39,328 nucleotides of DNA from Kiritimatiellia bacterium (GTDB lineage: Bacteria; Verrucomicrobiota; Kiritimatiellia; RFP12; UBA1067), in contig JAFSTA010000127.1 in NCBI GenBank assembly GCA_017450695.1, forward strand, positions 1 through 39,328, written 5' to 3'. How positions within the stretch are numbered: the stretch's first letter is position 1; each line of letters opens with the position of its first letter. Below the pieces are notes generated by a model. That model worked only from the letters and a program-made list of their open reading frames with translations. It had not been told where the DNA came from and did not search any database. Below are positions 7,266 through 39,002 of the stretch, one piece after another. The translations under genes and the position numbers were made by a program.

Positions 7266-7272
7266 GCGAATC

Positions 7273-7782: not shown

Positions 7783-7811
7783 TTGTCGCGACTGTAGCGG
7801 TTTGCTATACT
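7783..7811 (+). promoter_or_regulatory. Promoter of the aldo/keto reductase gene
   Basis: TTGTCG (7783-7788), a 17-bp spacer, TATACT (7806-7811), with the start codon 27 bp further on. Confidence 0.65.
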
Positions 7812-7837
7812 GATTGGCTTTGGAAGGAATGATTGTC

Positions 7838-8869: not shown

Positions 8870-8914
8870 AGCGGGGTGTAGGGAGGACGCAAAGAACTGT
8901 GGAAGCTGAGAGAC

Positions 8915-8957
8915 TGAGAAGCGGTGTCATTCGGGGAAGCGGCACTCCTGCCGCTTC
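8915..8957 (-). repeat. Hairpin family B, copy 3 (inverted)
   Basis: Reverse complement of the 5573 and 7701 copies: TGAGAAGCGGTGTCATTCGG, then GGAAGCGGCACTCCTGCCGC. The stem has changed to AAGCGGCA/TGCCGCTT, so pairing is preserved. Confidence 0.75.
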
Positions 8958-9012
8958 ATCCCGTTGCTGCGTGAAACGAGAGTGTCGCTTCTCCGAACAA
9001 CCGGTACCCCTA

Positions 9013-9070
9013 GATTCCTCGTTTTGAGGTCTCAAGCAGATCCGCAGATGGCGCAGAGTACGCTAAGAAA
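9013..9070 (-). repeat. Degenerate partial copy of repeat family F
   Basis: GATTCCTCGTTTTGAGGTCT then CAAGCAGATCCGCAGATGGC and GCAGAGTACGCTAAGAAA resemble 39271-39318 (GATTCCTCGTTTGGGTTCTC, ACGCAGAGCCGCTGAGG, CGGAGTACGCAGAG). Diverged, and covers only part of the family F element. Confidence 0.5.
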
Positions 9071-9098
9071 GTACCACCAACTTTCCCAAAAAATCCTA

Positions 9099-9127
9099 TT
9101 GGCAGACGCCTGAGAATATGGTATAAT
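9099..9127 (+). promoter_or_regulatory. Strong promoter of the small basic protein gene
   Basis: TTGGCA (9099-9104), an exact 17-bp spacer, consensus TATAAT (9122-9127), 36 bp before the start codon. One of the best sigma-70 matches in the window, suggesting high expression. Confidence 0.85.
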
Positions 9128-9163
9128 GAACTTTTCTGTTGATTACGAGAAGGAGATTTGGAA

Positions 9164-9319
9164 ATGAGCCAACACAGCAGTTTGAAAGGTTCGGGGAAAA
9201 TCACCGCGAAACGGAATGTCCTGAAGCGTTTTGAACGTATTGACCTGTTGAAGAAACGCGGTCAGTGGAAGGACGGCGACCGCGGTCTCGGTCTTCGCAA
9301 GACCAAGCCGGAAGCCTAG
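9164..9319 (+). CDS. PVC-type small basic protein
   Basis: 51 residues, starting at the ATG at 9164 with GAAGGAGA 7 nt upstream. Sequence features: MSQHSSLKGSGKI, KRNVLKRFERIDLLKKRGQW, and a basic ending with KTKPEA. This matches my memory of a short, highly basic protein family described from Chlamydiae, Verrucomicrobia and Planctomycetes (TIGR04137 small basic protein). Molecular role unknown; a nucleic-acid or ribosome association is plausible from charge. A near-consensus promoter before it and an 18-bp terminator stem after it make it a stand-alone, probably strongly expressed gene. It is the best phylum-level marker in the window. Confidence 0.85.
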   Translation: MSQHSSLKGSGKITAKRNVLKRFERIDLLKKRGQWKDGDRGLGLRKTKPEA

Positions 9320-9340
9320 TTGTCCCTTTTGCACCCTTTG

Positions 9341-9380
9341 AAAAAACACACGGGAGGCTAGCGCCTCTTGTGTGTTTTTT
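9341..9380 (+). terminator. Strong, probably bidirectional terminator
   Basis: AAAAAACACAC on the left pairs with GTGTGTTTTTT on the right. The stem continues inward for about 18 bp in all, including two G-T pairs, around the loop TAGC. The T-run on the top strand and A-run opposite allow termination either way. It ends the small basic protein gene 22 bp before the next start. Confidence 0.93.
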
Positions 9381-9402
9381 CGTTTAAGACGGGAGATTTC
9401 CG

Positions 9403-10707: not shown

Positions 10708-10709
10708 CC

Positions 10710-11801
10710 ATGCGAATCCTGTTCCGATATGTCCTGCGCGAATTCCTCGTTCCATTCTGCTACTGCCTGATCGGATTTATCGGGATTTATGTGATGTTCG
10801 AGTTGTTCAACTCGTTCTCGCGTCTGATGGAGGCGAAGCCGGGCACCTGGACGGTGGTGGCGTTCTTTGCGGGTTATCTCAGCCCCTACCTGAAATGGCT
10901 GATTCCGGCGGCGCTGTTGCTGGCTACGCTTTATACGATGTGGAATTTCTGCCGTCACAGTGAAATCACCGCCATGCGGGCCAGCGGGATCGGATTTTCC
11001 GCGATTGTCTCCCCGTTGCTTTTCATGGCGTTTCTGATGGCGTTCGGCGTGGCGGCGCTCGACGAGTTTTATGTGCCGGATGCGGCGGAGTGGGCGAAGG
11101 ACTTCCGTCAGGCGCGATTCCGCCATGTCGATGCGAACGTCTATTCCAACATTCCCTACTACAACCAGCAGCAGCGGCGCATCTGGCGTGTCGATAAGCT
11201 CGACGGGCGTAACCCGCATGTGTTGGAGGGCGTGACAATTTCTGTTGATCGTCCCGACGGTAGCCGCGAAGTTGATATCGCTAGTAAGAAGGCGGAGTTT
11301 CTGGACGGGGAATGGTGGCTGCACTATCCGCAATACCAGTACTTCGACGAGATCGGCAATCCGATACCGAACCCGATGCCGGCGATCACGAACCTGGTCT
11401 TCCGTGCCTTTCCCGATTTCAATGAGTCCCCTCGCGACTTCCTGCTGATGAACAAGCCGTGGGAATACTACTCGACGCGCGACCAGATCCAGTACCTCCG
11501 ACAGAACCCGAACGTCTCCGATTATTCCTCCAAGATCTTCGATGTCCACGCGAAGCTAGCCATGCCGTTTTCCTGTCTCATCATCACGCTGTTCGCAATC
11601 CCGTTTGGCGTCGCCACGGGCAGGCAGAGCGTGTTTAAGGGCGTGATCTGGGCAGTTGGACTCTTCTTCGCGTTCTACGCCGTCCATATCCTGTGCATGA
11701 TTTTGGCGAAGAACGGTCATATTCCGCCAGCCCCTGCTGCCTGGACAGCCAACGCCGTCTTCCTCGTGGTCGGCCTCTGCCTCTTCTGGCGTCAGCGCTA
11801 G
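10710..11801 (+). CDS. LptF/LptG-type permease (YjgP/YjgQ family)
   Basis: 363 residues from the ATG at 10710 (GAGGAG 8 nt upstream; GTG 10704 is an alternative overlapping the previous stop). N-terminal LFRYVLREFLVPFCYCLIGF is the typical first helix of YjgP/YjgQ proteins. Helices 2-3 and the coupling-helix region EITAMRASGIGFSAI (about 90-104) follow. A periplasmic beta-jellyroll-like region spans about 130-285, and three more helices complete the C terminus (MPFSCLIITLFAIPFG onward). These subunits pair with the LptB ATPase to extract lipopolysaccharide from the inner membrane. Whether this is F or G, or a relative serving another lipid, is not decidable here. Confidence 0.9.
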   Translation: MRILFRYVLREFLVPFCYCLIGFIGIYVMFELFNSFSRLMEAKPGTWTVVAFFAGYLSPYLKWLIPAALLLATLYTMWNFCRHSEITAMRASGIGFSAIVSPLLFMAFLMAFGVAALDEFYVPDAAEWAKDFRQARFRHVDANVYSNIPYYNQQQRRIWRVDKLDGRNPHVLEGVTISVDRPDGSREVDIASKKAEFLDGEWWLHYPQYQYFDEIGNPIPNPMPAITNLVFRAFPDFNESPRDFLLMNKPWEYYSTRDQIQYLRQNPNVSDYSSKIFDVHAKLAMPFSCLIITLFAIPFGVATGRQSVFKGVIWAVGLFFAFYAVHILCMILAKNGHIPPAPAAWTANAVFLVVGLCLFWRQR

Positions 11802-11948
11802 CCCGCCGCGTAAAACGCGGGCATTCCTGCCCTCGCGCAGAACAGAACGCGTACCTGCGGCAAGATATAAGAGACTCAGCCGCCCCGCATGTCGCGTGTC
11901 GCATATCCTTTACCCAACCGTAGCCGCAGAGAAGGGGAGGGACGCGCC

Positions 11949-12057
11949 CCGCGAGGAAAAGTTAAATCGCTTCGCTTGAAATGGTTAAATGGTTAAATTG
12001 AAGAGCCGCCGAAAGGCGTCCCCCGCCGATTTAAAGCCTCCGAAGGAGGCGATTTAA
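11949..12057 (+). repeat. MITE-like element E, copy 2
   Basis: Begins CCCCGCGAGGAAAAG. TTAAATCGC at 11962-11970 is perfectly inverted as GCGATTTAA at 12049-12057. The interior hairpin is GCCTCC-GAA-GGAGGC, where copy 1 has GCCGC/GCGGC, so the stem is kept although its bases differ. The rest of 11802-12473 is other repeats: a TCTCACGCAGAGACGCAGAG tract at about 12107-12138 and family F at 12283. No gene. Confidence 0.7.
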
Positions 12058-12282
12058 TCAGTTAAACCTAAAGTCCTCTGTTAGCTTTCCCAAACAACGG
12101 TGTTTATCTCACGCAGAGACGCAGAGACGCGGAGATTCGGCAAATATGTGGCGGTTTGCCGTGCGGTTTTCGCTTCATCCATTTGGTGAAGAATCGATCC
12201 TTTCTTTTCGCTTCCCAAACTTCGCTCGAACCTGCAAAATGCCCCTGTTTTCGGGCCTTTCTCTGCGTTCTCTGCGCCCTCC

Positions 12283-12380
12283 GCGGCTCTGCGTGAGAAC
12301 CCAAACGAGGAATCCAGGTAAAATCTTCGCGTTTCGGTATCGCAGGCATCTACCTAGATCACGGTGAAAAACGCAGATGC
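12283..12380 (+). repeat. Family F repeat, copy 1 (98 bp, perfect)
   Basis: Identical over all 98 bp to the reverse complement of 39196-39293. Begins GCGGCTCTGCGTGAGAACCC and ends GTGAAAAACGCAGATGC. It contains the palindrome-like CATCTACCTAGATCACGG. No open frame. It sits 32 bp upstream of the promoter-like element of the M24 peptidase gene. Confidence 0.95.
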
Positions 12381-12411
12381 GCCCCAGAGGAATTTCGGTC
12401 CAAACTTGGGC

Positions 12412-12440
12412 TTGCTTGTTCCCGATAAAAAGGGCAGAAT
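12412..12440 (+). promoter_or_regulatory. Candidate promoter of the M24 peptidase operon
   Basis: TTGCTT (12412-12417), 17 bp, CAGAAT (12435-12440). An overlapping alternative is TTGTTC (12416-12421), 17 bp, ATAAAT (12439-12444). Confidence 0.45.
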
Positions 12441-12473
12441 AAATTTTTTATTCAATGGAAGGGTGGTGCGGAT

Positions 12474-13676
12474 ATGTTTTCAGGATACGAGCCTGAATTA
12501 CTGGCTGATTTGACAGGGCGCTGGCAACGCATCCAACGCGACTTGGCACAGGCGGATGCCGACGCGATTTTGCTGGCGACGAATATGAATCTCTTCTATG
12601 TCTCCGGTCGCGTGTACAGCGGTTTCGCGTATGTGGCCCGCGACGAGGTTCCGGTCTTTTTCGTGCGCCGTCCCGTCGGACTTTCGGGTACCCGTACCCA
12701 TTCTATCCGCCGGATGGAGGAGATTCCGGAATTGCTCGCCTCGCACGGCATTCCCTCTCCTCGTCGCCTGATGCTGGAGGACGGCGAAATCCCGTACACG
12801 GAATGGCTACGTTTTTCCCAAGCTTTCCCCGGCGTGGAAACCGTGGCGGGCGGTTCCCATCTGATGCGGATGCGACGCGCCGTGAAAACGCCGTGGGAAA
12901 TCCGGCAGGTAGAAGCGGGTGGTTCCCTGCAGGGGGCCGCGTTCGCGGATTTTCCCTCGATCTTCCGCCCCGGCATGACCGACCAGGAGTTCAACATCGC
13001 GATCTTCGCGGAGATGTTGCGGCGAGGCAACCTCGGCGTCATTCGCGCGTCTGGATACACGATGGAGAACTTTGTCGGCTCGGTACTCGCGGGTGAGAAC
13101 GGTGGCGGCGTTTCCCCGTTCGACTTCGCACTGGGCGGTGCGGGCTGGTGCCGCGCCCTGCCGGTCGGGCAATGCGGCGCGGTGATCCGTCGCGGCGACG
13201 CGGTGATGTGCGACATTCCGGGCAACCTCAACGGTTATATGTCGGACTGCACGCGTACCTTCTCGTATGGTCCGCTCGTCCCTCGCGCCTACGAGGCTCA
13301 CCAGTGCTCGATTGAAATCGAATCGGCCATCGCGGCGGCGGGCGTTCCCGGCGCGTCCTGCGAAGCGCTTTACCTGATGAGCCTGGAGATGGCTGAGAAG
13401 GCGGGGTTCGCCGACTGTTTTATGGGGTTGAAGCAGAAGGCGAAATTCGTCGGCCACGGAACGGGACTGTATGTGAACGAGCTGCCGGTACTCTGCAAGC
13501 GTTCTCCGGATGTACTGGAAGAAGGCATGGTGATTGCCGTGGAACCCAAATTCGTCATCGAGGGTGCGGGCGCGGTCGGCGTAGAGGATACGTATGTGGT
13601 GACGCCGAACGGACTCCGTTGCCTGAGTGAATCTCCGCGCGGTATCGTGGATCTCGAAACCGGGAAGCGCACATGA
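12474..13676 (+). CDS. M24 metallopeptidase (Xaa-Pro aminopeptidase-like)
   Basis: 400 residues; ATG at 12474 with GGAAGG upstream. An N-terminal creatinase-like domain (about 10-140, ADAILLATNMNLFYVSGRVYS) precedes a pita-bread catalytic domain. All five metal ligands are visible: Asp247 (CDIPG), Asp258 (SDCTR), His328 (GHGTG), Glu357 (VEPKF) and Glu371 (VEDTY). This supports an active two-metal aminopeptidase, by family most likely removing N-terminal residues before proline (PepP/PepQ type). Exact specificity cannot be read from sequence, since creatinase and related hydrolases share the fold. The last bases overlap the next start as ATGA, so the two genes are translationally coupled. Confidence 0.92.
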   Translation: MFSGYEPELLADLTGRWQRIQRDLAQADADAILLATNMNLFYVSGRVYSGFAYVARDEVPVFFVRRPVGLSGTRTHSIRRMEEIPELLASHGIPSPRRLMLEDGEIPYTEWLRFSQAFPGVETVAGGSHLMRMRRAVKTPWEIRQVEAGGSLQGAAFADFPSIFRPGMTDQEFNIAIFAEMLRRGNLGVIRASGYTMENFVGSVLAGENGGGVSPFDFALGGAGWCRALPVGQCGAVIRRGDAVMCDIPGNLNGYMSDCTRTFSYGPLVPRAYEAHQCSIEIESAIAAAGVPGASCEALYLMSLEMAEKAGFADCFMGLKQKAKFVGHGTGLYVNELPVLCKRSPDVLEEGMVIAVEPKFVIEGAGAVGVEDTYVVTPNGLRCLSESPRGIVDLETGKRT

Positions 13677-20825: not shown

Positions 20826-25450
<4,625 letters not shown>

Positions 25451-25485: not shown

Positions 25486-27840
25486 TCACTCCGTCCGCCA
25501 ACCGTCCGGCAACTTACAGTGGACGGAAATCCCGCCTTCCTGTTTCCGCCGCCATGACACCTCTGCCACCGCGTCTTCCGAAAGCGGGACCGATCCCTCG
25601 CACCACTCCAACGGAATGTCCTTGGCAGGGGCGATCCGAATGCGCTTGCCCTTGCGGTCGATCAGGCGTACGCCCAGAATGTCGCGGTACAGGTATTCCG
25701 CCGCGATCGCCGCGAACCCGTGGCAGCAACTCGCGTGCGGCGTGGAGTTCTCCCACAGCGATCCGGTCTTCTCGGCCATGCGCAGGAAATAGTCGCGGGT
25801 CTCCTCGTAAATCTGTTTCGAGCGTCCTTCGCGGGAAAGCAGCTCCATCCGCAGCAGCGTACCGAAGAGGAAATTCGCGGGGGCGACTTCGCGGTGAAGT
25901 CCCCGCTGGACCCGATTGGGGCCGAACTCGTCCAACAGTGTCCGGTACAGCTCCGGATGCGTCTGCGGCGTCGCGGTCCCGGTGAAGAACGCGAAATACT
26001 GGCAGACTTCCGTCTGGCGTCCGGAGAGTTTCGCGGCGCCGTCCTGCCCGGAAAGCACGGCATTGTCACAGAACCACTTTCCCGTAAAGCTCTGCTCGCG
26101 GACCTTCTCGCGAATCCGCTTCGCGTCTTCGGCCAAGTCGCGGCGATCGTACAGTCGCGCCGTCACATCCAGCGCCCAGGCGTAGAGCATGTTCGCCGGA
26201 TAGTTGATATCCTGCACCAGACTGTTCGCTTCGCTCCATTCGATGAACACCCAGGCAGGAAGTTTCTGCAGCAGTCCGTCCGCATTCCGGTAGCGGGCCA
26301 GGCAGTTCAGGATGCCCTCCACCTTCGGACGGAACTCGCGCACCAGTTCATCCGCCTCTCCCCGCTTCGCGCATTCCTCCAGTTCACCGATCAACCACAT
26401 GTCGTAGGTTGTGATGAAGCAGGCCATCGTCATCAGGTCACACGGCCAGACCGCCGGAACCAGCCCCTTGCACGATTCGGGGGAATGAAAGGATTCCGGC
26501 ATGACGAAGTTCTTCAGGAAGAGCTGTTCGTTGCGTCCGCTTCCGGTCAACCAAGCGCTCGCGCGCCCGGTGAAGAACGTGTCGCCGAGCCAGCCCCCGC
26601 GCTCGCGGGTCGGACAGTCATTCAGGCAATCGACGGCATTCGCGACATAACTTGCCCGGGCGGCCTCGAAGATTTTCTCCAGCGCGGGATCGGAACTCCT
26701 GAACTTGGCGTGCGCGGTAGACGGTGACTCGTATGTCCGCACGAACGGCGGCATGACGCGCGCCTCGCCACCCACCGACAGCACGCGCATATACTTGCAG
26801 CCGTTTGGCTCGAACGCCTCCAGCGCGTATTCTCCCGGCGCGTCGAGATGCCAGGTCAACGTGCCGACGGTGTCCGTTCTGATGAAACCGACATCTCCGT
26901 TCTCCTGCAGAATCTCGTCAAACACCAGGTAGATGCTCGTGGGAGCCTTCGCCTCCACGCGAAGCCCGAAGAATCCGCCCCGTACGCGATCGAGCGCATA
27001 CACCACGCCCTCGCAGTTGCCGAGACGGCAGGCGCCGTCCGCCTCCGCCGCCGGTTCGCCATGTTCGACAACCTTCTGCCGCTGCATCTCGAAATACGGA
27101 TTGTCCTCCAGTTCGGCGAGGGGGAAACACTGGAAGTTCGCCGGGCCGTTGGCGATGAAGCGGGGCGTCAGCGGTTTCGTTTCCGGGTCGCGCCGCGTCC
27201 GTACCCGCGACAGGGGAACGGAGTTGACAACGTGGAAATCGGGATAGGCCCACTCGCGCGGGAGAAGCCGGACGGGGGGCAGTCGATCCAAAGGCAACTC
27301 CGCACCCTTCTTGTGCGGCAGGCGATAGACCTCGCAGTAGGTCCGCTGATAGGAGAAACGGGGAACCTTGCGAAGCCTCGGTGTGGTGAACGCCTGGAAG
27401 CCGTCCGTACCCGTCGCCGCCACGACTTTCCCGCCGACCAACACTTCAGCCTGCAGGAACGGACGTTGGGACGGCAAATAGAAATTCTCGCAGTTGTAAC
27501 CGGCGACCTGGATTTCCAGGACGTTCTCGCCCTCCTTCGGCGAGAGCGTCCATTCATCGACGCGGAAGAATCCGGGCGCGGCCCGCGCCGGACCGAATGC
27601 CGCGAACGCGCCGTTCAGGCTGGCCTTGTAGTCATATCCTGCGGTAGCGCGGAGTTTCACCGCCTCGCCCTGACGCGCGTGAAACACGCATGTGAACGAG
27701 AAGAACGAATTGGCGGTTTGGGACTCGCCCACCGGCCAGACCGGCAACGCCGCCTGAAAACCGGCCGCGCCGACGGATGTCGCAAGCGTCGCCCAAAATG
27801 ACAAACCCGCGAAAAACATTCCGAAACGTAACCCTCTCAT
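25486..27840 (-). CDS. GH78 alpha-L-rhamnosidase-like secreted enzyme
   Basis: 784 residues; ATG at 27840 with AAGGGGG 9 nt upstream. Residues 1-26 are a signal peptide ending SVGAAG. An N-terminal beta-sandwich region (about 30-350) has ASLNGAFAAFGPARAAPGFF and FDEILQENGDVGF segments typical of the accessory domains of rhamnosidases. The six-hairpin barrel follows, with the diagnostic DCPTRERGGWLGD (Glu413) used in catalysis by GH78 enzymes. The C terminus ends in a beta domain (GKRIRIAPAKDIPLEW, AEVSWRR). It should release rhamnose from plant or bacterial glycans outside the cytoplasm. First gene of the three-gene sugar operon. Confidence 0.88.
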   Translation of the reverse strand: MRGLRFGMFFAGLSFWATLATSVGAAGFQAALPVWPVGESQTANSFFSFTCVFHARQGEAVKLRATAGYDYKASLNGAFAAFGPARAAPGFFRVDEWTLSPKEGENVLEIQVAGYNCENFYLPSQRPFLQAEVLVGGKVVAATGTDGFQAFTTPRLRKVPRFSYQRTYCEVYRLPHKKGAELPLDRLPPVRLLPREWAYPDFHVVNSVPLSRVRTRRDPETKPLTPRFIANGPANFQCFPLAELEDNPYFEMQRQKVVEHGEPAAEADGACRLGNCEGVVYALDRVRGGFFGLRVEAKAPTSIYLVFDEILQENGDVGFIRTDTVGTLTWHLDAPGEYALEAFEPNGCKYMRVLSVGGEARVMPPFVRTYESPSTAHAKFRSSDPALEKIFEAARASYVANAVDCLNDCPTRERGGWLGDTFFTGRASAWLTGSGRNEQLFLKNFVMPESFHSPESCKGLVPAVWPCDLMTMACFITTYDMWLIGELEECAKRGEADELVREFRPKVEGILNCLARYRNADGLLQKLPAWVFIEWSEANSLVQDINYPANMLYAWALDVTARLYDRRDLAEDAKRIREKVREQSFTGKWFCDNAVLSGQDGAAKLSGRQTEVCQYFAFFTGTATPQTHPELYRTLLDEFGPNRVQRGLHREVAPANFLFGTLLRMELLSREGRSKQIYEETRDYFLRMAEKTGSLWENSTPHASCCHGFAAIAAEYLYRDILGVRLIDRKGKRIRIAPAKDIPLEWCEGSVPLSEDAVAEVSWRRKQEGGISVHCKLPDGWRTE

Positions 27841-29250: not shown

Positions 29251-30519
29251 TTAGGCACACAAGGCTGTCAAAGGCAGAACATACACGCCGTCATCCCTGC
29301 GGTGCGCGATGCCATATACGCCGACCACGACGGCAAGGGAACGCGGCGGGGTACGGACAAACTTCGCCGCGAGTTTCTTCAGGCGGAGAGCCGCCTCATC
29401 CGCGTCTGCCGGATTGAGCTTGATCTCAAACCCGCTCCACGATCCGTCTGGGAACTGGATCACGGCGTCAATCTCGCCTCCGTCATAGTCCTGATAATGG
29501 CGTAACTTCGCGTCCATGCTCTCGGCATAGATCTCCAGATCCCGGATCGCCATCGACTCGAAAAGGAAGCCGAACGTCCGCATATCCTTTGCAAGCGATT
29601 TGGGGGATGCGTCCAAAAGCGCGGCAGCAAGCGACGGATCGCAAAACCGGTGTTTCGGAACTTGCTTGATTCGTTGGGGCGATCTGAGGAACGTGGAGAA
29701 CGGCTCCGTGTCATTCGTCAGGAACATCCTTCTGAATGCGTCCAGATAAGCGGCGACAGTGTGTATGCCCAATGACGAATCGTCCATCTCCGCAATGTCA
29801 TTCCGAATTGTCGAAGTCGATGCGGTCGTCGATTCGTTACGGGCAAGGGATCGAAGGCACTTGCGCACCTTTCCCGAATCACGCTCGATGCCGTCTAGGC
29901 GGTTGATGTCTATCCGCATGATGTTGTCCAGATATTCACGCGGGACGGCTATCGCCTGTTCAATGGGTAGCCCGATCGAGCCTGGCCAACCGCCGCGAAC
30001 GACAAGGTTGACCAGCCTTTCAATCGATGGTGTCGGAACGGTGACAATACCGATGTCGTTCCCCTCGCAAACATCGCGGACGGAAACAGCGCAGTCGGAA
30101 TCTCCGCTTTCCTGAAGGGACATGGGATGCATGGCAAGGGAGGCGATTCTCCCGGTACCAGAATGCACAACGCCTTTCAGTTGCGGAGTCGATGACCCGG
30201 TCAGAATGAACCTCCCTTTCTCGCGACTCTCGTCCGCCTGGTATCGAACCGCATCCCAGATTGCCGGAACTTCCTGCCACTCGTCAATCAGGTGGGGGGG
30301 CGCCCCCTCCAACGACTTGTTGACATCCAACCGCGCAATCTCGCGGTTTGAGAAATTGTTGGCTGGGTCGGCCAGCATGAACGCGCTCTTTGCGTGCATT
30401 GTACTCGTCCACGTCTTTCCGCACCATTTTGGCCCCTCTACAACAACGGCAGGGAACGTGGCCAGATAGAAGTCTAGCCGCTTGTCTATGAGTCGAGGTC
30501 TGTATTGTGACTTATCCAC
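29251..30519 (-). CDS. AAA ATPase of the AAA_14/DUF4143 type
   Basis: 422 residues from the GTG at 30519, chosen because GGAGG lies 6 nt upstream; an ATG at 30552 overlaps the promoter -10 and is unlikely. RPRLIDKRLDFYLATFPAVV (about 6-25) leads into the degenerate Walker A EGPKWCGKTWT. HLIDEWQEVPAIWDAVRY supplies Walker B, and ILTGSS gives the sensor. The C-terminal half matches DUF4143: a helical linker, then a restriction-like fold ending DYDGGEIDAVIQFPDGSWSG with FEIKLNP (D...E-x-K pattern). Families like this are widespread, highly duplicated and functionally obscure. It is single-gene, with tandem repeats directly upstream of its promoter. Confidence 0.88.
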   Translation of the reverse strand: MDKSQYRPRLIDKRLDFYLATFPAVVVEGPKWCGKTWTSTMHAKSAFMLADPANNFSNREIARLDVNKSLEGAPPHLIDEWQEVPAIWDAVRYQADESREKGRFILTGSSTPQLKGVVHSGTGRIASLAMHPMSLQESGDSDCAVSVRDVCEGNDIGIVTVPTPSIERLVNLVVRGGWPGSIGLPIEQAIAVPREYLDNIMRIDINRLDGIERDSGKVRKCLRSLARNESTTASTSTIRNDIAEMDDSSLGIHTVAAYLDAFRRMFLTNDTEPFSTFLRSPQRIKQVPKHRFCDPSLAAALLDASPKSLAKDMRTFGFLFESMAIRDLEIYAESMDAKLRHYQDYDGGEIDAVIQFPDGSWSGFEIKLNPADADEAALRLKKLAAKFVRTPPRSLAVVVGVYGIAHRRDDGVYVLPLTALCA

Positions 30520-30550
30520 CGCAATCCTCCAAATTGGTGAAGTGGTGTGC

Positions 30551-30579
30551 ATTGTATCAAAAAAAACGCGTGAACGCAA
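30551..30579 (-). promoter_or_regulatory. Promoter of the DUF4143 ATPase gene
   Basis: Minus strand: TTGCGT (30579-30574), 17 bp, TACAAT (30556-30551), 32 bp before the GTG at 30519. The tandem repeat array starts 3 bp upstream of the -35 box. Confidence 0.7.
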
Positions 30580-30954: not shown

Positions 30955-32469
30955 TCAGACCTCCAGCGCACCGTAGTCGATCTTCGAGGCATGACGGGGA
31001 TCTCGCGGAATGCGGGCGACCACCCGGACCTCGTCATGCGGCACGCGTACGGGATCCAGACGGGCGGCTTCGGCTGCGGCCGCTGCGGGGGCGTCGCTCT
31101 CCAGCACCAGCACCGCCCGCCCGTCTGCCGCCCGCACCACCGTCCCCGCCGTGCTCGATGCCAGACCCTCCAGCGCTTGTTCCACGAGCGCCGGATAGCA
31201 CCAGACGCCCGAAGCCGTCCGAAAGACGCGGCTCGCTCGTCCGAGCAGGAAGAGCTTCCCGTCCACCAGTCGCCCCGCATCGCCCGTGCGGTGGTAGATG
31301 CGTCCGCCAACGCGGATCTTGTTCGCCCGCACCGCCTCGGGATTGCGGTAATAGGTCGTAAGCACATGGTCTCCCGCCACGCAGATTTCGCCCGCCGCAC
31401 CCGGAGCCGCCTGAGCCGCCTGCCAAGCCGCCTCGGACATCTCGTGCCCGAGTTCCGCGTCAAGCCGCACGATGGCGAGGTCGAGAAAACGGTTCACTGT
31501 TCCGGCGGGAATTCCCGGTGCCAGGTCAGTCGCCGCCGCGAGTTCCTCAGCCGCAATCGCCGCAATCGGCTCGACCTCCGTGGACCCGTACACGGCGCTC
31601 ACGCGCGTACCGGGAAATGCCGCGGAAAGTTCCGCCGCGAACGCGGGGAAGACCGCCGCCCCGCCCACGTGGAGCGCGCGCAGGGTCGGAATCGGATTCG
31701 TCCCGTGAGACGCCTCTGCGAGCCGACGGTAGAACGCCGGCGAACCGGCAGTGGTCGTCACCCCGGCCCGCCGCGCCTCGGCGGCAATCCGCTCGGGGTC
31801 GATCTCGGCCGGCTTGGCGGGATTGAAGTCGGGGATCAGCGTTGACACGCCGCAGGCGAGGTTGTTGAGCGCGAAGATCGGCAGCGTCGCCAGGTCCACA
31901 TCGCCCGCCTGCACGTCGAGGGACGCCGTGAGCGCCACATGCTGCGCCCAAAGGAAGCCACAGGTCCTGAGCGCCGCCTTTGGAACGCCCGTCGAGCCCG
32001 TGGTGAAGGTAATCAGCGCCGGATCCTCGGGGCGGCATTCCGCCGGTTCAAAGTCCGCGACCGCCCGCTTCAGGCCGAAACCCGGCAGGCACCGAACGGG
32101 AATCCGCCGCAGCGCCCGCGACTTCAGGAGAAGGAGATACGCCTTTGGAATCGCGATGAATGCCTTCGCCTCCGCAAGCTCCGCGGCGTAGTCCAGCCGT
32201 TTCGGATCCGCCCATGCATCCAGGAACACCGCGACCGCGCCGATGGCGAAGACCGCGAGCAGAATCTCGTAAAGCGCAATCCCCATCGGCACGAAGAGGA
32301 CAACCCGGTCCCCCTTCCCGACCCCGCGCCGGCGCAGCTCCGCCGCCCGCCGCTCGACATGCTTGCGGAAGTCTCCGTACGTCAGCGTCTTCCCGCGATG
32401 AAGGAGGGCTGGACGCTCAGGTGCCTCGTCCGCGAAGCGACGGAGGCTTTCAAAGAGATTGGCGTTCAT
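30955..32469 (-). CDS. Acyl-adenylating ligase (AMP-binding enzyme, OleC/fatty-acid ligase-like)
   Basis: 504 residues; the ATG at 32469 overlaps the previous stop as ATGA. An ANL-superfamily enzyme: the P-loop TFTTGSTGVPKAA (154-166), YGSTEVEP (294-301), HRTGDAG (393-399), and a C-terminal subdomain ending SKIDYGALEV with Lys496 as the likely catalytic lysine. The general layout (TGDxGxL...GRxSRV...YPxxVE) resembles fatty-acid ligases related to OleC. It activates a carboxylic acid with ATP, then forms a thioester, amide or beta-lactone; the acid and acceptor are unknown. No acyl-carrier protein is visible nearby, so CoA is the likelier acceptor. Last gene of the six-gene operon. Confidence 0.9.
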   Translation of the reverse strand: MNANLFESLRRFADEAPERPALLHRGKTLTYGDFRKHVERRAAELRRRGVGKGDRVVLFVPMGIALYEILLAVFAIGAVAVFLDAWADPKRLDYAAELAEAKAFIAIPKAYLLLLKSRALRRIPVRCLPGFGLKRAVADFEPAECRPEDPALITFTTGSTGVPKAALRTCGFLWAQHVALTASLDVQAGDVDLATLPIFALNNLACGVSTLIPDFNPAKPAEIDPERIAAEARRAGVTTTAGSPAFYRRLAEASHGTNPIPTLRALHVGGAAVFPAFAAELSAAFPGTRVSAVYGSTEVEPIAAIAAEELAAATDLAPGIPAGTVNRFLDLAIVRLDAELGHEMSEAAWQAAQAAPGAAGEICVAGDHVLTTYYRNPEAVRANKIRVGGRIYHRTGDAGRLVDGKLFLLGRASRVFRTASGVWCYPALVEQALEGLASSTAGTVVRAADGRAVLVLESDAPAAAAAEAARLDPVRVPHDEVRVVARIPRDPRHASKIDYGALEV

Positions 32470-33464
32470 CCGAGTTCCTTTGCATAGAGGCGGTAGCGGC
32501 GGCAGACCTCCGCATGCGCGTGGTTTCCGATGTTGGAGGAGATGTTGTCCTCGTGCATCAACGCATGGTATGCGAGCTTGAACCCGTCCTCGTACGCCAT
32601 CTTCGCCATCCGCTCGACGAGAAGTCCGCCCAGACCGCGGCAATCCGAATCGGGAAGTACCGCGATCGTCTTGATGACGTACTCCTCCCCTGCAGGGGCG
32701 TAGGCGTTCGGGAAGCCGAAGACGAATCCGACGGGCGTCCCGTCCGCGCGCCGCGCGATCGCCGCATCGTGCGGACGCAACCGTCCGACGAGGGGTAGGT
32801 ACTGCGCGAGGAAGGCCTCGCGGGTGATCGGCGCATAGACGAAGTTGTGGCGGAAGCTCACGACCGACACGTCGTAAATGGCGTTCAGCTCCTCCTCCAA
32901 GCGGTCGGGACGGAAGTCGTAGACGGTCACCCCGCGCTTTTCCAAGATCCGCGTCGCCTTCTCGACCCGGGGGAATGAATCGGGGCCAAGCGGGAAACAC
33001 GACGAGGTGTAGTTCGCGATGATTTCGTAACCGAGCGCTTCCCATAGTCCACAGTAGTAGGCGGGATTCATTGGCTCCAGCGGGAAGCGGCACGGCGCAC
33101 CTTCGGGAAGCGCGAGACGGTACGGCGCCCAGGTCGTGCCGTTCATCGGTCCCACCACGCGATGGAAACCCGCCGCACGGATGCTCGCCTCCGCCGTTCC
33201 GAGGACGGCGGCCGCGCATGCCGCATCGTCAACGCATTCAAACGACCCGATGAGTCCCGGCGTCTCATCACGGAAAGAGACATCGGGATTCGTCCAAATG
33301 CCCGCGCGGGCCAGGACATCGCCTTCGTCGCTGCGAACGACGAAGAACGGCAGGCCATCAGGCGCCAATTCACGGCGGTACAACGGACCGTACAAGCGAT
33401 GCGGAAGTTCCTCGAAGAGCGTACGTGTCTCTTCGGAAAGGAGGAAGGATTCAGCGTTTTTCAT
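32466..33464 (-). CDS. GNAT-like acyltransferase protein
   Basis: 332 residues; ATG at 33464, overlapping the upstream gene by 14 nt, with no good Shine-Dalgarno, implying translational coupling. Length and sequence suggest two GNAT-like halves. The first (about 60-170) contains GLIGSFECVDD and the segment VVGPMNGTTWAPYRL, found in large uncharacterised GNAT proteins. The second (about 200-325) has the acetyl-CoA-loop-like VIKTIAVLPDSDCRGLGGLL. It likely transfers an acyl group to an amine. In this operon a plausible acceptor is the amino group made by the BtaA-like enzyme, with the acyl donor coming from the downstream ligase. That link is inference. Confidence 0.75.
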   Translation of the reverse strand: MKNAESFLLSEETRTLFEELPHRLYGPLYRRELAPDGLPFFVVRSDEGDVLARAGIWTNPDVSFRDETPGLIGSFECVDDAACAAAVLGTAEASIRAAGFHRVVGPMNGTTWAPYRLALPEGAPCRFPLEPMNPAYYCGLWEALGYEIIANYTSSCFPLGPDSFPRVEKATRILEKRGVTVYDFRPDRLEEELNAIYDVSVVSFRHNFVYAPITREAFLAQYLPLVGRLRPHDAAIARRADGTPVGFVFGFPNAYAPAGEEYVIKTIAVLPDSDCRGLGGLLVERMAKMAYEDGFKLAYHALMHEDNISSNIGNHAHAEVCRRYRLYAKELG

Positions 33465-34515
33465 AGGCGCTCACGGAAATGAAAGAGACGACTAGGGACA
33501 GGACGTAAACGGGCGTCGACACCCAGAGGTTGGCCCAACCGCCGAGCTTCTCGGCGAGATTGAAACCCATCACCACTAGGAACGGCAGGGCGGCCAGGGC
33601 AAAGACAGTGCGGACCTCGGCTAGGCGAAGCGTCTTGCTGTGGTGGATGGCAACGGCGCCCGCCACCGTCATCACGCCCCACCACGGCGAGTGGAGTCCG
33701 CTTGCCAGATAGACGAGTAGAGCCGTCACCACGCGTCCCGAACCCTGCATGACGCGCAGGAGGCGCATCGGGATGCAGACGGCCACGAATGCCGTCGCCA
33801 GGCAGACGATCTGGTACGTCATCGCACACAGATCGGGATGCGCGTTCTTGATGAGGATCGCCATCACGCCAATGGGTATCGCCACGTTGTCCGACCCGCC
33901 AAGGGAGACGCTTTCGAAGAGCGTGACAAGGACTCCAATCATGAAGGCGAGGACGGACGCCTCGAGCGGCGCTATGCCGACGACGAGAAGCAGGATGTGA
34001 TGTACCAGCGCGTAGGTCACGAGGAAAAAGAAGAAGGAGCCTTCAAGCGAACGGTAGTCCTCGCCGTCCACCCGATAGCGGAAGCGTCCGTATCGTTCGC
34101 CGACGAGCGCCGCCGCCGTATCGGACAATGCCAGAACCAGGATCGCGATCTCGTAGAACGCGAAACACCGGTAGAACGTCGCCAACAGGAAGCAGAGGTA
34201 GAGCGCGAGCGGGTGCAGGATGCCCCCGTGCGAACGGCGCTTCACGTCGTTGACCGCATGGAGCTGTCCGCGTCGGCTGAGGCAGAAGATGAGCACGAAG
34301 AAACCTCCGCAAATCACCAGCACCGACCAGTGCGAACGGAAGAGGACCGGAAACAGCAACGCCGACCCGCAACCGCCGATGTGCAGAAGCTTGCGCGACT
34401 GCTCCGGGGAGAGGATCCCGCGCCGTCGCAGAAACTCGCCGATGCCGAAAATCGCACCGGTCAACAGCGTCAGCCCCAGGGCGCCGCAACACTCACGAAC
34501 GAAGGACATCCACAT
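33451..34515 (-). CDS. DGK1/dolichol-kinase/phytol-kinase-type CTP-dependent lipid kinase
   Basis: 354 residues from the ATG at 34515 (GGAG 6 nt upstream), overlapping the previous gene by 23 nt. Integral membrane protein with about 9-10 hydrophobic helices. Family signatures are visible: RKLLHIGG (41-48), the nucleotide-binding SDTAAALVGERYG (131-143) and RSLEGS (155-160), as in yeast Dgk1, Sec59 and plant VTE5 farnesol/phytol kinases. These phosphorylate diacylglycerol or long isoprenoid alcohols with CTP. The C-terminal 130 residues extend beyond the minimal domain with more membrane segments. Whether the substrate is diacylglycerol or a prenol is open; both fit the operon. Confidence 0.85.
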   Translation of the reverse strand: MWMSFVRECCGALGLTLLTGAIFGIGEFLRRRGILSPEQSRKLLHIGGCGSALLFPVLFRSHWSVLVICGGFFVLIFCLSRRGQLHAVNDVKRRSHGGILHPLALYLCFLLATFYRCFAFYEIAILVLALSDTAAALVGERYGRFRYRVDGEDYRSLEGSFFFFLVTYALVHHILLLVVGIAPLEASVLAFMIGVLVTLFESVSLGGSDNVAIPIGVMAILIKNAHPDLCAMTYQIVCLATAFVAVCIPMRLLRVMQGSGRVVTALLVYLASGLHSPWWGVMTVAGAVAIHHSKTLRLAEVRTVFALAALPFLVVMGFNLAEKLGGWANLWVSTPVYVLSLVVSFISVSAYEKR

Positions 34516-35599
34516 GGTAGGCTCCGTAGAAGAACGCCTGGTTGTTCGCAAACAACCGGTCGGCCAGTTCCGTCTGCCGCGCAAAGGCCTCAGGCAACGC
34601 GTCCGTCAGCTTGCGCGGCAGCATCATGTTGTAGTAGGCGTACACGGCGCCCGGCGCGGACCGGGACACCAGCTCCTCCGCCATCGCGCGGAAGAGATCC
34701 GGCCCCATGTACTCGAAGATGTCCGAGAGATTGAAGAAACTATACCCCTCCGGTTCCCGCGCAAGGTCGCCCGGCGCACCCTGGACGAACTTCAGCCGGT
34801 CGAGCCGCGAACGGATCGTCTCGAAGTTCTCCGCCCGCGCATAGTGCGGGAGCACGCCATCGAAGGTGCCGAAGATCGTGTAGCGGAGATAGGGGTTGTC
34901 GTCTGTCGGCAATTCGGACATCGCCCGCTCGGCGCGTTTCCAGATCTCGCCGGAGATTGCGACCGTGCGGACGTAGCGGAAGAACTCCGGGTCGCGCCCC
35001 AAGCGCCCCATCACCCACCTGTTGAAGAAGAGCTTGAAGAGCAGGCGGTAGCGGAGATTTGCCCACGTCTTGCGGAAGAACGCCCGGCGCTCCTCCAATC
35101 CCTTCGCCCGCAGCAATTCCTGCCGTTCGCGCCGCGTGTGCGTCAGCGGCAGGATACGTCGGGCGAAGATGCGGAAATACGACTCGAACTTACCGGCATC
35201 AATGACACCGCCTTCGAGCAGGTCCTGCCGGGAGTCATAGCGTTCGCGGGGCGGCTCCTCCAGCGCCGCGCGCACCTTCTCGCGGTAGAGCGCCGACCGT
35301 TCGCCTGGCTCTGCCGCGGCGAAGCCAAGAAAACGCAGGAACGCCCCGTGTTCGAGCGTGCGGAATGCCGCGGCCTTGAGGGCACAGAGGTCGAGTTGCG
35401 CACGGTTGAGATCGAAGGCCGTCACCGACACGGGATCACCGCAGAGAAGCGAGAACGAGTTGTCTCCCGCCGATGCGATCGAAAGGCAGCGCGCCCGCGC
35501 CGGCAGCGCACCGAGCAACAGCAGCGGGTCTTCCCAGCAGTTGGCGTAACGGACGAAGTCGAACTTCGCGCGATCCTGAATCGCCTGGCCCTTGCTCAC
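34493..35599 (-). CDS. DUF3419 / BtaA-like SAM-dependent aminocarboxypropyl transferase
   Basis: 368 residues from the GTG at 35599, in a GTGA overlap with the previous gene and with AAGGAG 5 nt upstream. The N-terminal YANCWEDPLLLLGAL (18-32) and the SAM pocket SIASAGDNSFSLL (40-52) plus FDLNRAQLDLCALKAAAF (62-79) match BtaA, which moves the 3-amino-3-carboxypropyl group of SAM onto diacylglycerol to give diacylglyceryl-homoserine, the precursor of betaine lipids. No BtaB N-methyltransferase is in the operon. If it is a true BtaA, the product would stay a free amine or be modified otherwise, for instance by the GNAT-like enzyme. An acceptor other than diacylglycerol is possible. Confidence 0.88.
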   Translation of the reverse strand: MSKGQAIQDRAKFDFVRYANCWEDPLLLLGALPARARCLSIASAGDNSFSLLCGDPVSVTAFDLNRAQLDLCALKAAAFRTLEHGAFLRFLGFAAAEPGERSALYREKVRAALEEPPRERYDSRQDLLEGGVIDAGKFESYFRIFARRILPLTHTRRERQELLRAKGLEERRAFFRKTWANLRYRLLFKLFFNRWVMGRLGRDPEFFRYVRTVAISGEIWKRAERAMSELPTDDNPYLRYTIFGTFDGVLPHYARAENFETIRSRLDRLKFVQGAPGDLAREPEGYSFFNLSDIFEYMGPDLFRAMAEELVSRSAPGAVYAYYNMMLPRKLTDALPEAFARQTELADRLFANNQAFFYGAYHVDVLRS

Positions 35600-38049
35600 A
35601 CCTGCTCCTTTCCAATGACGCGCACCGTGCCGGCCGCGCCGTCCAGTTCGACCTCTTCGCCGTCCTTCACTGCGGCGAGGAGTCCCTTCACCCCAACGAC
35701 ACACGGGATGCCGAGTTCACGCGTGAGGATCGCGGCGTGCGAGAGGACGCTCCCGCGCTCGACCAGCACGCCCTTCGCAAGCGGGAAGAGCGGACCCCAC
35801 CCCGGATCCGTCCGTTCCGCCACAAGGATACACCCCGTGACATCCGCCGCCTTCGAGAGGTCGCGGATGACGCGCACCCAGCCCCGGACCGTCCCTCGGC
35901 AGCAGCCGATGCCCGAGAGACAGCCCGCCGGTGCTTCCTCCCCTGCGGACTGTGCCGCCCCGACGCTCACGGGTACACCCCCGCGTGTCTCGAACCGCTC
36001 GGGCAGGGGCGGCATCTCCGCGTATGCGTCGAACTGCGCGCGACGCGCTGCCACGACTTCCCGGAAACCCTGGGCGTCCGCACACCCGCCGGCGTAGCCC
36101 AGTACTTCGGGGAAGGTAAGGTAGAAGACGTCACGCCGCGCATCGAGGAATCCGCTCGCGACGAGACGGTCCCCGAAGGCCAGCATGAGCCTGCGGACAA
36201 CCGCAAACAGCCGCGTCCGTTCGAAGCGCAGGTTCTCGCGGTTCGACACGTAGCGTCTTGCCGCCGCGCGCAGGCGGTTGAAGAGGAATCGGCGCAACGG
36301 ATGCCCCTTGAGGGCGGAGAGATCCGGACTCGGCGGCTTTGATGGCTGCGGCGGAGGGACGGAGAGATAGCCGCGCAGCATTCCGAGAAGCGGTGTCGGA
36401 TCCATGTCGTAGGTCACGGTCTCAAGTTTCAGCTCGCCCATACACCGGCTTCCGAATTTCTTGAGATACGTCCGCCACGCGGCCGCGAAAGCCGGATTCC
36501 CATCAAGCGCGGCGAGGAATTCCGCATCCGACGAACCTTCAAGTCGTGCGCGGAGCGCGGAATCACCTCGGACGATCTCCGCGAGTTCCGCAAGGCGGCG
36601 CATCGGTTCTGCGGAGATGATGTTCCCGACGCCGACGAGGATGTCGTTCTGCATCGTCCCCGCAGAATCTACGCCCCACTGGACGAGTTTCTTCTTGAGC
36701 AGTCCGTACGCAATCATGGCGAAAAAGTCGTTCACAAGCGGTGTCCGCCAGCCGACGATGAACTCGCGTTCGAGTCCGTCGTAGATCCGCGCGAGCTCAG
36801 CCGTGGAACAGGCGGAGAAATCGTCCGCCTCAAGAGGCGCGATGACGGCGTCGAAACGCGCACGGAACTTCCGGACACGGCGCGGTAGCGTAAAGGCATA
36901 CCCGAGGATGCCACCGAGCGTGGCGAGGACGCGCAGGAATTCGGGACGGCGCGAGGGGCGGATCGTGGGCTTGTCCTTCAACGGCTCCTTGACGCCCATC
37001 ATCGTCTCCATGAACGGCGCGTTGATCCGGTATCCAGGCAGCATCATCAGCACACGGTACCAGTTGCGGAGATTGTAGTAGAAGCGTCCGTGCCAGTGGC
37101 CGAGCATTTCAAAGGCGTCCGGGTTCGCCGCGATGAGCGACGGTTCCACGCCGAGCGCGCGGCAGAACTGGCGATAGACCGCCGAATAGACGCCGCGCGC
37201 GAAAGAGAACGTGAGCGGCAGCGTGATGCCGGGATAGCTCTCGACGATGTTCGAGTTGTCCCAGAGGATCGCCTCCTCGTCCGGATCAGGCAAGGAACCG
37301 AGCGTCGTGATGGGGCGCGTCTGCAGAATACGCAGGTCGCCCTTCCCGGTATAGGCCCACTCGACGTCCTGGGGACTGCCGAAGGCCTTGGAGATCGCCT
37401 GTACGACCGTGGCGATCTCCTTCACCTGGTTTTCGGTCAGCACGGGATCCGTCCGCTCGGCGTCGTTCAGCGTCATCCGGATCGTTCCGCCGTCCGCCGC
37501 GTAGCGGACGGCATATTCCTTCTCCGTCACCGTCGCATCGATCGTCTCGCCGTGAACAACGAATGTGTCAGCCTCGGCGAGTTCGGAGACGAGTCCCTCG
37601 CCGAGGCCGCGCACGGCCGATACGGTCACGGCGCGGCGCGACCCCGTCTTGAAATCAACGGCGAAGGCAACACCCGCCGTTTCGGACTCCACCATCTCCT
37701 GGACGATGACGTTCATCCGAAGATCGGCCGGATCGACGCCGTGTTCCCGGCAATAGGCGCGAACCACGTCAGAGGTGCAGGAGGCGCGGACCTCCCGCAC
37801 GGCATCCGCCAGGCTCTCCTGCGGCACGGCCAGCCGCGTGGCGAACTGCCCCGCAAACGAACACGCGCCGCCATCCTCGGCCGAAGCCGAGGAACGGACC
37901 GCAAACCGCGCGACGCTGTCAAGCCCCGCCTCGCGCAACAGCATCGGAAGATCCTCGGGCTTGGACTCGGGACCAAGGACGATCCAGGCCGGCACGGGGA
38001 AGCCGAGTTGCCGGAGGCGTGTGAGGTTGTCCGCCTTGCCTCCGTTCAT
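35596..38049 (-). CDS. PEP-synthase-like dikinase without PEP/pyruvate barrel
   Basis: 817 residues; ATG at 38049 overlaps the previous stop as ATGA. The first 270 residues are the ATP-grasp part of PEP synthase/PPDK (GGKADNLTRLRQLGFPVPAW, RSSASAEDG, VQEMVESETAGVAF, LQTRPITTLG). About 270-700 is a helical middle region with no known match. The C terminus is the swivelling phosphohistidine domain ERGSVLSHAAILTRELGIP with His771. The C-terminal PEP/pyruvate TIM barrel is absent, the same three-part layout as rifampin phosphotransferase. So it probably splits ATP to AMP and Pi and phosphorylates an unknown acceptor held by the middle domain. In this operon a lipid or prenyl alcohol is a reasonable guess. 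Confidence 0.88.
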   Translation of the reverse strand: MNGGKADNLTRLRQLGFPVPAWIVLGPESKPEDLPMLLREAGLDSVARFAVRSSASAEDGGACSFAGQFATRLAVPQESLADAVREVRASCTSDVVRAYCREHGVDPADLRMNVIVQEMVESETAGVAFAVDFKTGSRRAVTVSAVRGLGEGLVSELAEADTFVVHGETIDATVTEKEYAVRYAADGGTIRMTLNDAERTDPVLTENQVKEIATVVQAISKAFGSPQDVEWAYTGKGDLRILQTRPITTLGSLPDPDEEAILWDNSNIVESYPGITLPLTFSFARGVYSAVYRQFCRALGVEPSLIAANPDAFEMLGHWHGRFYYNLRNWYRVLMMLPGYRINAPFMETMMGVKEPLKDKPTIRPSRRPEFLRVLATLGGILGYAFTLPRRVRKFRARFDAVIAPLEADDFSACSTAELARIYDGLEREFIVGWRTPLVNDFFAMIAYGLLKKKLVQWGVDSAGTMQNDILVGVGNIISAEPMRRLAELAEIVRGDSALRARLEGSSDAEFLAALDGNPAFAAAWRTYLKKFGSRCMGELKLETVTYDMDPTPLLGMLRGYLSVPPPQPSKPPSPDLSALKGHPLRRFLFNRLRAAARRYVSNRENLRFERTRLFAVVRRLMLAFGDRLVASGFLDARRDVFYLTFPEVLGYAGGCADAQGFREVVAARRAQFDAYAEMPPLPERFETRGGVPVSVGAAQSAGEEAPAGCLSGIGCCRGTVRGWVRVIRDLSKAADVTGCILVAERTDPGWGPLFPLAKGVLVERGSVLSHAAILTRELGIPCVVGVKGLLAAVKDGEEVELDGAAGTVRVIGKEQV

Positions 38050-39002
38050 CGCGTCCCCCAGCCGAGCAGATGCGGCACGGCACCCACGAGCACATACATG
38101 GCGACGGTCCAGAGCCCCGAGGCGAGTTCGATGGCGTGACCGGTCTTACGTCCGAACAGAAAGGCAACCGCCGGGGCAACACACAAGAGGAACGACAGCG
38201 TCAGCCAAATTCCTCCGCGCAACAGATAGCCACGCGCCCAGCAACAACCGAGGGACAGCCCCCAGGTCAGCGTCAGGAGGACGATCCAGACGGCCGCGGC
38301 ACGGAACCGTCCCCACAACGCGGAATAGGTCTCGACGCCCGGCTCCTCGTCTTCGGGCACACGGATCTTGCGTCCAATCTCAATGACACAACCGTTGGTG
38401 AAGGTAAGCGCCAGGAAGAGGAACATCCCCGACGGCAACCGCACACCCTTGACAATCCAATCCAGTCCCGAGGTGTAGAAGTCGATGAGCGGCATGACCA
38501 TCATGTGCGTGAGCATATAGGTAACGGGATGGCGGCGCAGCCATGCGGGAACGAAGAACTCCTTCCACATCAGCAGGAGATAGCCGAGCGACAGCGCGAG
38601 GGGCGCGAGTAACCAGGACGCGACGCATGCGTTCGCAACGAAAAGGAAGGCGATGATGCCGAGGATGAGGCCGCGGAGTTCGCCGAAGGTGACGAGCCCG
38701 CGCGGGACGGCGCGGTAAGGGCGGTATTTTGCATCGTCCTCGGCATCCTTGAACTCGTCGAACAGCCGCAGGAGAAAGAAGAGCCCGAACGAGGTGGCGA
38801 CACCGACGGCCATCACCAGTCCGTTGATCAAACCGGAGCGCCCTCCGCTCAACACCGAATAACCCGAAGCCGAAAAGGTGAAAGCCGCGACAAGCGGCAG
38901 ATACTGCTGCAACGGAAAACGCTCTTTCTGGTAAATCCAGAAACGGACGGGGAGCGCCCGTTCGTTATCCCTCAAATCAATCTGTCTGTCTTGTTCGCGC
39001 AC
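38046..39002 (-). CDS. UbiA-family membrane prenyltransferase
   Basis: 318 residues with about 8-9 membrane helices. Two Asp-rich motifs are recognisable: RLFDEFKDAEDDAKYRPYRA (79-98), equivalent to NDxxDxxxD with the RxxRP extension, and IEIGRKIRVPEDEEPGVETY (207-226), corresponding to the second acidic motif. UbiA enzymes attach a prenyl diphosphate to an aromatic ring, heme, tocopherol precursor or glycerol-phosphate; the acceptor here is unknown. The start is uncertain: GTG 39002 gives an N-terminal charged extension without a Shine-Dalgarno, and TTG near 38975 is an alternative. First gene of the six-gene operon; its own promoter is not obvious in 39003-39060. Confidence 0.87.
   Translation of the reverse strand: MREQDRQIDLRDNERALPVRFWIYQKERFPLQQYLPLVAAFTFSASGYSVLSGGRSGLINGLVMAVGVATSFGLFFLLRLFDEFKDAEDDAKYRPYRAVPRGLVTFGELRGLILGIIAFLFVANACVASWLLAPLALSLGYLLLMWKEFFVPAWLRRHPVTYMLTHMMVMPLIDFYTSGLDWIVKGVRLPSGMFLFLALTFTNGCVIEIGRKIRVPEDEEPGVETYSALWGRFRAAAVWIVLLTLTWGLSLGCCWARGYLLRGGIWLTLSFLLCVAPAVAFLFGRKTGHAIELASGLWTVAMYVLVGAVPHLLGWGTR

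Follow-up and report, generated by a model that had tools for sequence, protein, structure and literature searches.

What do six genes that overlap one another along the minus strand of a Kiritimatiellia contig make, and do they make it together? The window analyzed here is one whole contig (JAFSTA010000127.1, positions 1 to 39328, 39,328 nucleotides) of a 5.0 Mb assembly, GCA_017450695.1, whose closest relatives in sequence are Kiritimatiellae genomes from the guts of goats and sheep, along with other assemblies of rumen type. Between positions 30955 and 39002 it carries six uninterrupted minus-strand open reading frames that encode, in order of transcription, a UbiA-superfamily prenyltransferase-like membrane protein, a dikinase, a DUF3419/BtaA-like transferase, a CTP-dependent lipid kinase or CTP-transferase-like membrane protein (CTPk hereafter), a tandem GNAT acyltransferase and an AMP-forming ligase, with the region upstream of the UbiA gene in view up to the contig end at 39328. 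A first-pass annotation of this DNA had reported overlaps of 4, 4, 23, 14 and 4 nucleotides at the five junctions and assigned the six families as above; the overlaps proved exact when the reading frames were rechecked, and the assignments are right, with Pfam, motifs, profiles and fold in agreement. Our comparison across genomes makes it virtually certain that the six genes constitute one conserved pathway.

This conclusion rests on using the DUF3419 protein to search about 85,000 species genomes, which yielded 50 loci. Further loci, taken from the phylum, from one relative and from one plasmid, brought the set to 70, and gene presence was called in it by family profiles built from those same loci (organism names of assembled genomes are as deposited). 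The first-pass annotation had proposed a single coordinated pathway and named a lack of synteny in relatives as one finding that would refute it; we find instead that the six-family order recurs, with all six genes at 47 of the 70 loci, mostly in the same order, and many of the remaining loci stopping at a contig edge. The order HMGR-UbiA-dikinase-BtaA-CTPk-GNAT-ligase, headed by an HMG-CoA reductase (HMGR), accounts for 25 loci, the six-gene order without HMGR for 13, and swapped blocks (BtaA-CTPk-GNAT-ligase-UbiA-dikinase, with or without HMGR) for 8; in the rearranged blocks CTPk remains with BtaA and UbiA with the dikinase. The hosts span at least four phyla, comprising Verrucomicrobiota (including Kiritimatiellae and Lentisphaeria), the Gastranaerophilales of the Cyanobacteriota, Bacteroidota and Pseudomonadota, the last represented by Halomonas and by Roseinatronobacter sp. 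S2, where the operon lies on a plasmid. Homologs from more distant hosts share about 25-55% identity with the window proteins, so that the synteny is not explicable by recent contamination or transfer. Among 95 relatives, operon-type BtaA and operon-type UbiA occur in the identical seven genomes and in no others, a match with a chance of about 1e-10 by simple counting that ignores relatedness, and DUF3419 scores across 388 genomes of the phylum are bimodal (438-520 bits for the operon type, 154-190 bits for the rest). Furthermore, over 33 loci the pairwise tree distances of the seven families show correlations of 0.49-0.90. The shared gene order in four phyla and the all-or-none co-occurrence exclude chance; combined with the bimodal scores and the correlated distances, the latter points to an old unit that has been jointly inherited and transferred. 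Synteny, all-or-none occurrence and the correlation of the trees thus give the proposal of one coordinated pathway strong support, and the first two reject the alternative of unrelated neighbors around a plain menaquinone UbiA. As judged from these genome comparisons, the operon is an accessory trait, without counterpart in most close relatives, that has spread horizontally.

Variants of the locus were also seen. A reduced form in Ruminococcus (L045 and L049, about 3000-12900) holds GNAT, dikinase, DUF3419 and two AMP ligases, joined by an APH-type kinase, a WbuX-like amidotransferase and a short open reading frame with a UbiA-like motif recognized by eye. A large Aas-type protein (L016, 13647-17117, minus strand; L105, 2116-5472) neighbors the operon in Gastranaerophilales and one Verrucomicrobiota genome; it has MFS, acyltransferase and AMP-binding domains assigned by Pfam in L016 and a similar appearance, by length and by eye, in L105.

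Four of the six window proteins (dikinase, DUF3419, GNAT and the AMP-binding ligase) score well above their Pfam cut-offs; the window's own UbiA and CTPk proteins match no Pfam family, and among their operon homologs UbiA exceeds the cut-off in several and CTP_transf_1 (PF01148) is just over it in one. The DUF3419 protein (34493-35599, minus strand, 368 residues from a GTG start) matches PF11899 with an E value of 2e-51 and carries an invariant core (W29-E30-D31, G52, N54, D70, N242, P258 and Y365) that is also found in canonical BtaA from Rhizobium. These common residues support aminocarboxypropyl transfer dependent on S-adenosylmethionine (SAM), and the protein is probably a 3-amino-3-carboxypropyl transferase with SAM as donor. 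Another orphan context for DUF3419 was encountered on a Rhizobium plasmid (L079, 751-5071), where the gene adjoins an annotated CoF synthetase, a metallo-beta-lactamase-fold gene and a 368-residue hypothetical protein.

The UbiA-like protein (38046-39002, minus strand, 318 residues, again from a GTG start) has an invariant first Asp-rich motif, RxxDExKDxxxD; the usual second motif, DxxxD, is not present and is replaced by ExGRKxR...E, in which E208, R211, K212 and E219 are invariant. Its profile finds DGGGP synthase as top PDB match (6m31, E 3.9e-5) and it matches the EboC model weakly. The dikinase (35596-38049, minus strand, 817 residues) consists of an ATP-grasp domain, a middle substrate domain and a C-terminal swiveling His domain (Pfam PPDK_N at 46-252 and PEP-utilizers at 739-807), the same succession as in rifampin phosphotransferase (RPH) (PMC4844700). 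RPH-type proteins (5hv2/5fbs, E 3e-69) are its top PDB matches, H771 aligns with the swivel His and is conserved in relatives, and no C-terminal domain for binding phosphoenolpyruvate (PEP) or pyruvate was detected. With this domain order and swivel His, the enzyme should take a phosphate from ATP and pass it to whatever substrate the middle domain binds. It reaches 308 bits against the RIF_Ptrans model (cut-off 999), and 248 and 288 bits against the models of PigC and RedH, relatives in which a related architecture serves condensation. A related dikinase (29% identity) was also noted on a Streptomyces durmitorensis plasmid (L072, 4669-14991), among AfsA-type, nitroreductase, P450 and ketosynthase III genes.

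CTPk (33451-34515, minus strand, 354 residues) keeps E35, RK38-39, H42, R90xSxG94, D129..AA..G136, E198, GxDN206-207 and P211 invariant, a set that we take to resemble the motifs of the Dgk1/VTE5 family. Its AlphaFold2 model (pLDDT 92) has a CTP-transferase fold: the top structural match is CdsA (4q2g, Z 9.3 over residues 44-223), a second CdsA match follows at Z 8.5, and the next-ranked stands at 6.3. The tandem GNAT protein (32466-33464, minus strand, 332 residues; Acetyltransf_1/Acetyltransf_6 in Pfam) yields a model with pLDDT 91.6 that best matches MAB_4324 (Z 22.1) and mycothiol synthase (Z 20.9), and the fold search of the PDB returned generic tandem GNATs only, with no pointer to a substrate. 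The AMP-forming acyl or carboxylate ligase (30955-32469, minus strand, 504 residues; PF00501, E 7e-51), which lies in the OleC-like region of its family, retains the motifs TFTTGSTGxPK, YGSTE, GxHV and PxDxRHxxK in relatives, so that its adenylation motifs are complete, and reaches the cut-off of none of the curated families compared, the nearest being PRK09274 (322 bits, cut-off 478). An OleC olefin or beta-lactone synthetase pathway was rejected, with the ligase at 199 bits vs. 900 and 148 vs. 850.

Clustering of the neighboring genes brought out one recurring addition, a class I HMGR (340-395 bits to PF00368), which is present at 39 of the 70 loci and stands directly before either UbiA or BtaA. 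The operon copies keep, where the site is covered, the catalytic Glu, Lys, Asp and His (E559, K691, D767 and H866) and the HMG-binding residues R590 and N755; on the Roseinatronobacter plasmid the gene was predicted and then found across the start of the record, and in a genome from the window's own family HMGR heads the operon. Within the phylum it occurs in 15 of 23 genomes with the operon vs. none of 33 without it. In hosts that use the methylerythritol phosphate (MEP) route, as recognized by the presence of IspG (e.g. Sphingobacterium, Parapedobacter and Halomonas), the operon HMGR is the sole one, HMG-CoA synthase was not detected and no mevalonate kinase match exceeded the cut-off. In four hosts where IspG was not detected there are two HMGR matches each, and the second HMGR-like copies of Saprospiraceae and Cryomorphaceae, whose role is unsure, do not align at the catalytic lysine. 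The distribution in the phylum and the single copy in MEP hosts indicate that the reductase belongs to the operon's pathway and not to general isoprenoid synthesis, and its service as an ordinary mevalonate-pathway enzyme is disfavored in these hosts by IspG and by the lack of an HMG-CoA synthase or over-cut-off mevalonate kinase match. The gene stood outside the view of the first-pass annotation, and its presence in most relatives alters the chemistry to be considered.

The reading that we favor, with slightly less than even confidence, is of a horizontally spread accessory operon whose single product is an amphiphile embedded in the membrane, partly prenyl or other lipid and bearing a homoserine-type group derived from SAM; that the product is lipid-like and carries an aminocarboxypropyl group we regard as an evenly balanced proposition. 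The substrates and the order of steps are what we infer from the gene set, its order and co-occurrence, the domain architectures and the conserved active sites. In the likeliest scheme, the BtaA-like enzyme would place 3-amino-3-carboxypropyl from SAM onto a lipid hydroxyl, the ligase would activate a carboxylic acid that the tandem GNAT then puts on the free amine, and in a third step UbiA would move a prenyl group from its diphosphate to an acceptor, with CTPk and the dikinase phosphorylating a lipid alcohol or its precursor. A kinase and dikinase branch supplying donors and a ligase and GNAT branch for acylation may thus be envisaged, while this precise succession of steps is improbable. 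In lineages with the reductase, mevalonate itself would be a building block, possibly the acid of the second step, as in fungal fusarinine synthesis, which offers a precedent for a mevalonate-activating ligase working with a GNAT-type transacylase; in gut lineages without it, including the window genome, a different acid or an outside supply would have to stand in. Mevalonate is probably a structural unit in the lineages that have HMGR. The further-reaching proposal of a new class of bacterial membrane lipid, spread among phyla on mobile DNA, we consider unlikely; its synthesis would join prenyl transfer to a homoserine headgroup from SAM and would use mevalonate not as an isoprenoid precursor but structurally, as an acyl or alcohol unit.

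The lipid character of the product gains from several observations made at other loci. In the Sphingobacterium operon, genes for CdsA and a CDP-alcohol phosphatidyltransferase lie between HMGR and UbiA, and outside the operon a lipid kinase is paired with DUF3419 and GNAT: an Aminicenantes locus (L052, 7289-12616) has a diacylglycerol-kinase-like gene followed by DUF3419 fused to PEMT, GNAT and an ornithine/diaminopimelate (DAP)-type decarboxylase, and an acidobacterial one (L053, 8305-12663) has DUF3419 followed by GNAT and an ornithine/DAP-type decarboxylase. These two runs possibly represent a separate lipid headgroup pathway. The suggestion in the first-pass annotation of an unknown lipid or prenyl-lipid is plausible, with indirect support from the DGGGP-synthase-like UbiA, the CdsA-like fold of CTPk, the Sphingobacterium genes and the Aminicenantes run, and the interpretation given there is, taken as a whole, partly supported.

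Several results weigh against the amphiphile that we favor, as well as against a general part for mevalonate in it. No HMGR was found in the entire assembly of the window genome, nor in the other six-gene Kiritimatiellae, Lentisphaeria and Gastranaerophilales, and its lack in several operon lineages implies that mevalonate is not universally needed and that the step can be missing. Residues that switch with the presence of HMGR were not found in the ligase and gave no clear signal in the six enzymes (the linked columns, 6 of 310 in GNAT, where they are weak, and 4 of 360 in BtaA, are confounded by clade), and the trees of HMGR and of BtaA contain long branches, with some of their forks unresolved. 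GNAT was not detected at three Verrucomicrobiota loci among the 70. More generally, enzyme families do not fix substrates, the relatives of the dikinase include prodigiosin ligases, and the GNAT protein may merely acetylate.

A diffusible specialized metabolite (a signal, siderophore or antibiotic-like compound) in place of a membrane lipid has an appreciable, if minor, chance. Here the ligase would activate mevalonate or another acid and GNAT would put it on the aminocarboxypropyl amine, much as SidI/SidF do in fungal fusarinine synthesis; UbiA would attach a prenyl group to the core, and the dikinase would either activate a hydroxyl or, like PigC/RedH, join two halves by condensation. The combination of HMGR, AMP-ligase and GNAT fits this logic of mevalonyl ligase and transacylase, as do the dikinase scores against the PigC and RedH models, and a patchy, plasmid-borne distribution suits an accessory metabolite; yet two of the enzymes are membrane proteins from lipid families, some operons contain CdsA and CDP-alcohol transferase genes, several lineages lack the reductase, and no transporter or regulator conserved with the gene set was found among the clustered neighbors. 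Less probable still is prenol salvage coupled to prenyl transfer, modeled on plant VTE5/VTE6 phytol recycling, in which CTPk would make a prenyl phosphate and the dikinase the diphosphate that UbiA transfers, the remaining enzymes making the acceptor. CTPk has motifs that resemble the Dgk1/VTE5 type, and CTPk, dikinase and UbiA occur together at nearly all loci on long enough contigs; against this, VTE6 comes from a different protein family, the hosts include soil, saline and alkaline-spring bacteria without an obvious phytol source, and rearranged loci separate CTPk, which goes with BtaA, from UbiA, which goes with the dikinase. The core residues of BtaA in the DUF3419 domain might suggest a variant of the betaine-lipid pathway to diacylglyceryltrimethylhomoserine (DGTS), which is very improbable: the operon proteins form their own long-branched clade, apart from canonical BtaA with support of 95/95, they are about 25% identical to a Rhizobium BtaA whose gene adjoins a methyltransferase gene, and DUF3419 scores in the phylum are bimodal. 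The BtaA/BtaB pathway as such was rejected on account of this separate clade and of the absence of a methyltransferase partner, BtaB, among the conserved operon genes.

Its enzymes all come from known families, and the set is an orphan biosynthetic operon. The open-access literature on betaine lipids, on mevalonyl ligases, on HMGR in bacteria with the MEP route and under the family names yielded no description of it, with most subscription papers and preprints outside this coverage, and the Lipocone paper mentions UbiA and HMGR neighborhoods whose gene contexts differ. This six-to-seven-gene pathway extends over at least four phyla and into the cultured genera Sphingobacterium, Parapedobacter, Halomonas and Roseinatronobacter, where the question of its product is directly testable in non-pathogenic laboratory hosts, and it accounts for a single intact HMGR in MEP-route bacteria that have no evident other use for the enzyme. 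Should the product be a lipid, the membranes of bacteria, rumen and gut species among them, would gain a headgroup or backbone of new chemistry, and a proven new lipid class would be categorically new.

Elsewhere in the window, the intergenic sequence between 28025 and 30707 holds imperfect direct repeats (96 nucleotides at 92%, 53 nucleotides in three copies, and 51 nucleotides) and inverted repeats, and two of these repeat families flank the gene at 29251-30579 (minus strand) as if it lay between copies of a repeat element. This gene and that at 5643-7424 (minus strand) look by eye ATPase-plus-nuclease-like (DUF4143-type; AAA-ATPase-like/PD-(D/E)XK-type). The large proteins at 20826-24824 and 25486-27840 (both minus strand) resemble, again by eye, a beta-galactosidase and an alpha-rhamnosidase, as fits a gut glycan degrader, and at 1679-3332 a tRNA-Thr, an EF-Tu-like gene (by eye) and a tRNA-Trp follow in a row, the usual tufB neighborhood.

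Set beside known systems, the operon shares with each a part of its logic. With the BtaA/BtaB betaine-lipid pathway it has in common a DUF3419 enzyme with the same core residues and the expected transfer of 3-amino-3-carboxypropyl from SAM, yet it departs from it in having no adjacent or fused N-methyltransferase among the conserved genes, in its separate DUF3419 clade and in its five or six further enzymes. The likeness to the ebo operon is the weak EboC-model match of the UbiA-like protein, whereas no other ebo gene was recognized among the neighbors. RPH has the ATP-grasp, middle and C-terminal swivel His domains in the same order as the dikinase, which differs in a match of about 240 bits, a divergent middle domain and a gene set within a biosynthetic operon. 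The fungal SidI/SidF pair is alike in the logic of combining a mevalonate-activating ligase with a GNAT-type transacylase, but the operon has no hydroxyornithine and brings in prenyl and lipid enzymes. The archaeal ether-lipid pathway (HMGR, DGGGP synthase, CDP-archaeol synthase and CDP-alcohol transferase), finally, is echoed by HMGR, by a UbiA nearest to DGGGP synthase, by an enzyme of CTP-transferase fold and, in Sphingobacterium, by CdsA and a CDP-alcohol transferase. No GGGP synthase gene was seen among the conserved operon neighbors, to which this search was confined; unlike the archaeal pathway, the HMGR hosts here are mostly MEP bacteria in which HMG-CoA synthase was not detected, and the operon adds DUF3419, GNAT, ligase and dikinase.

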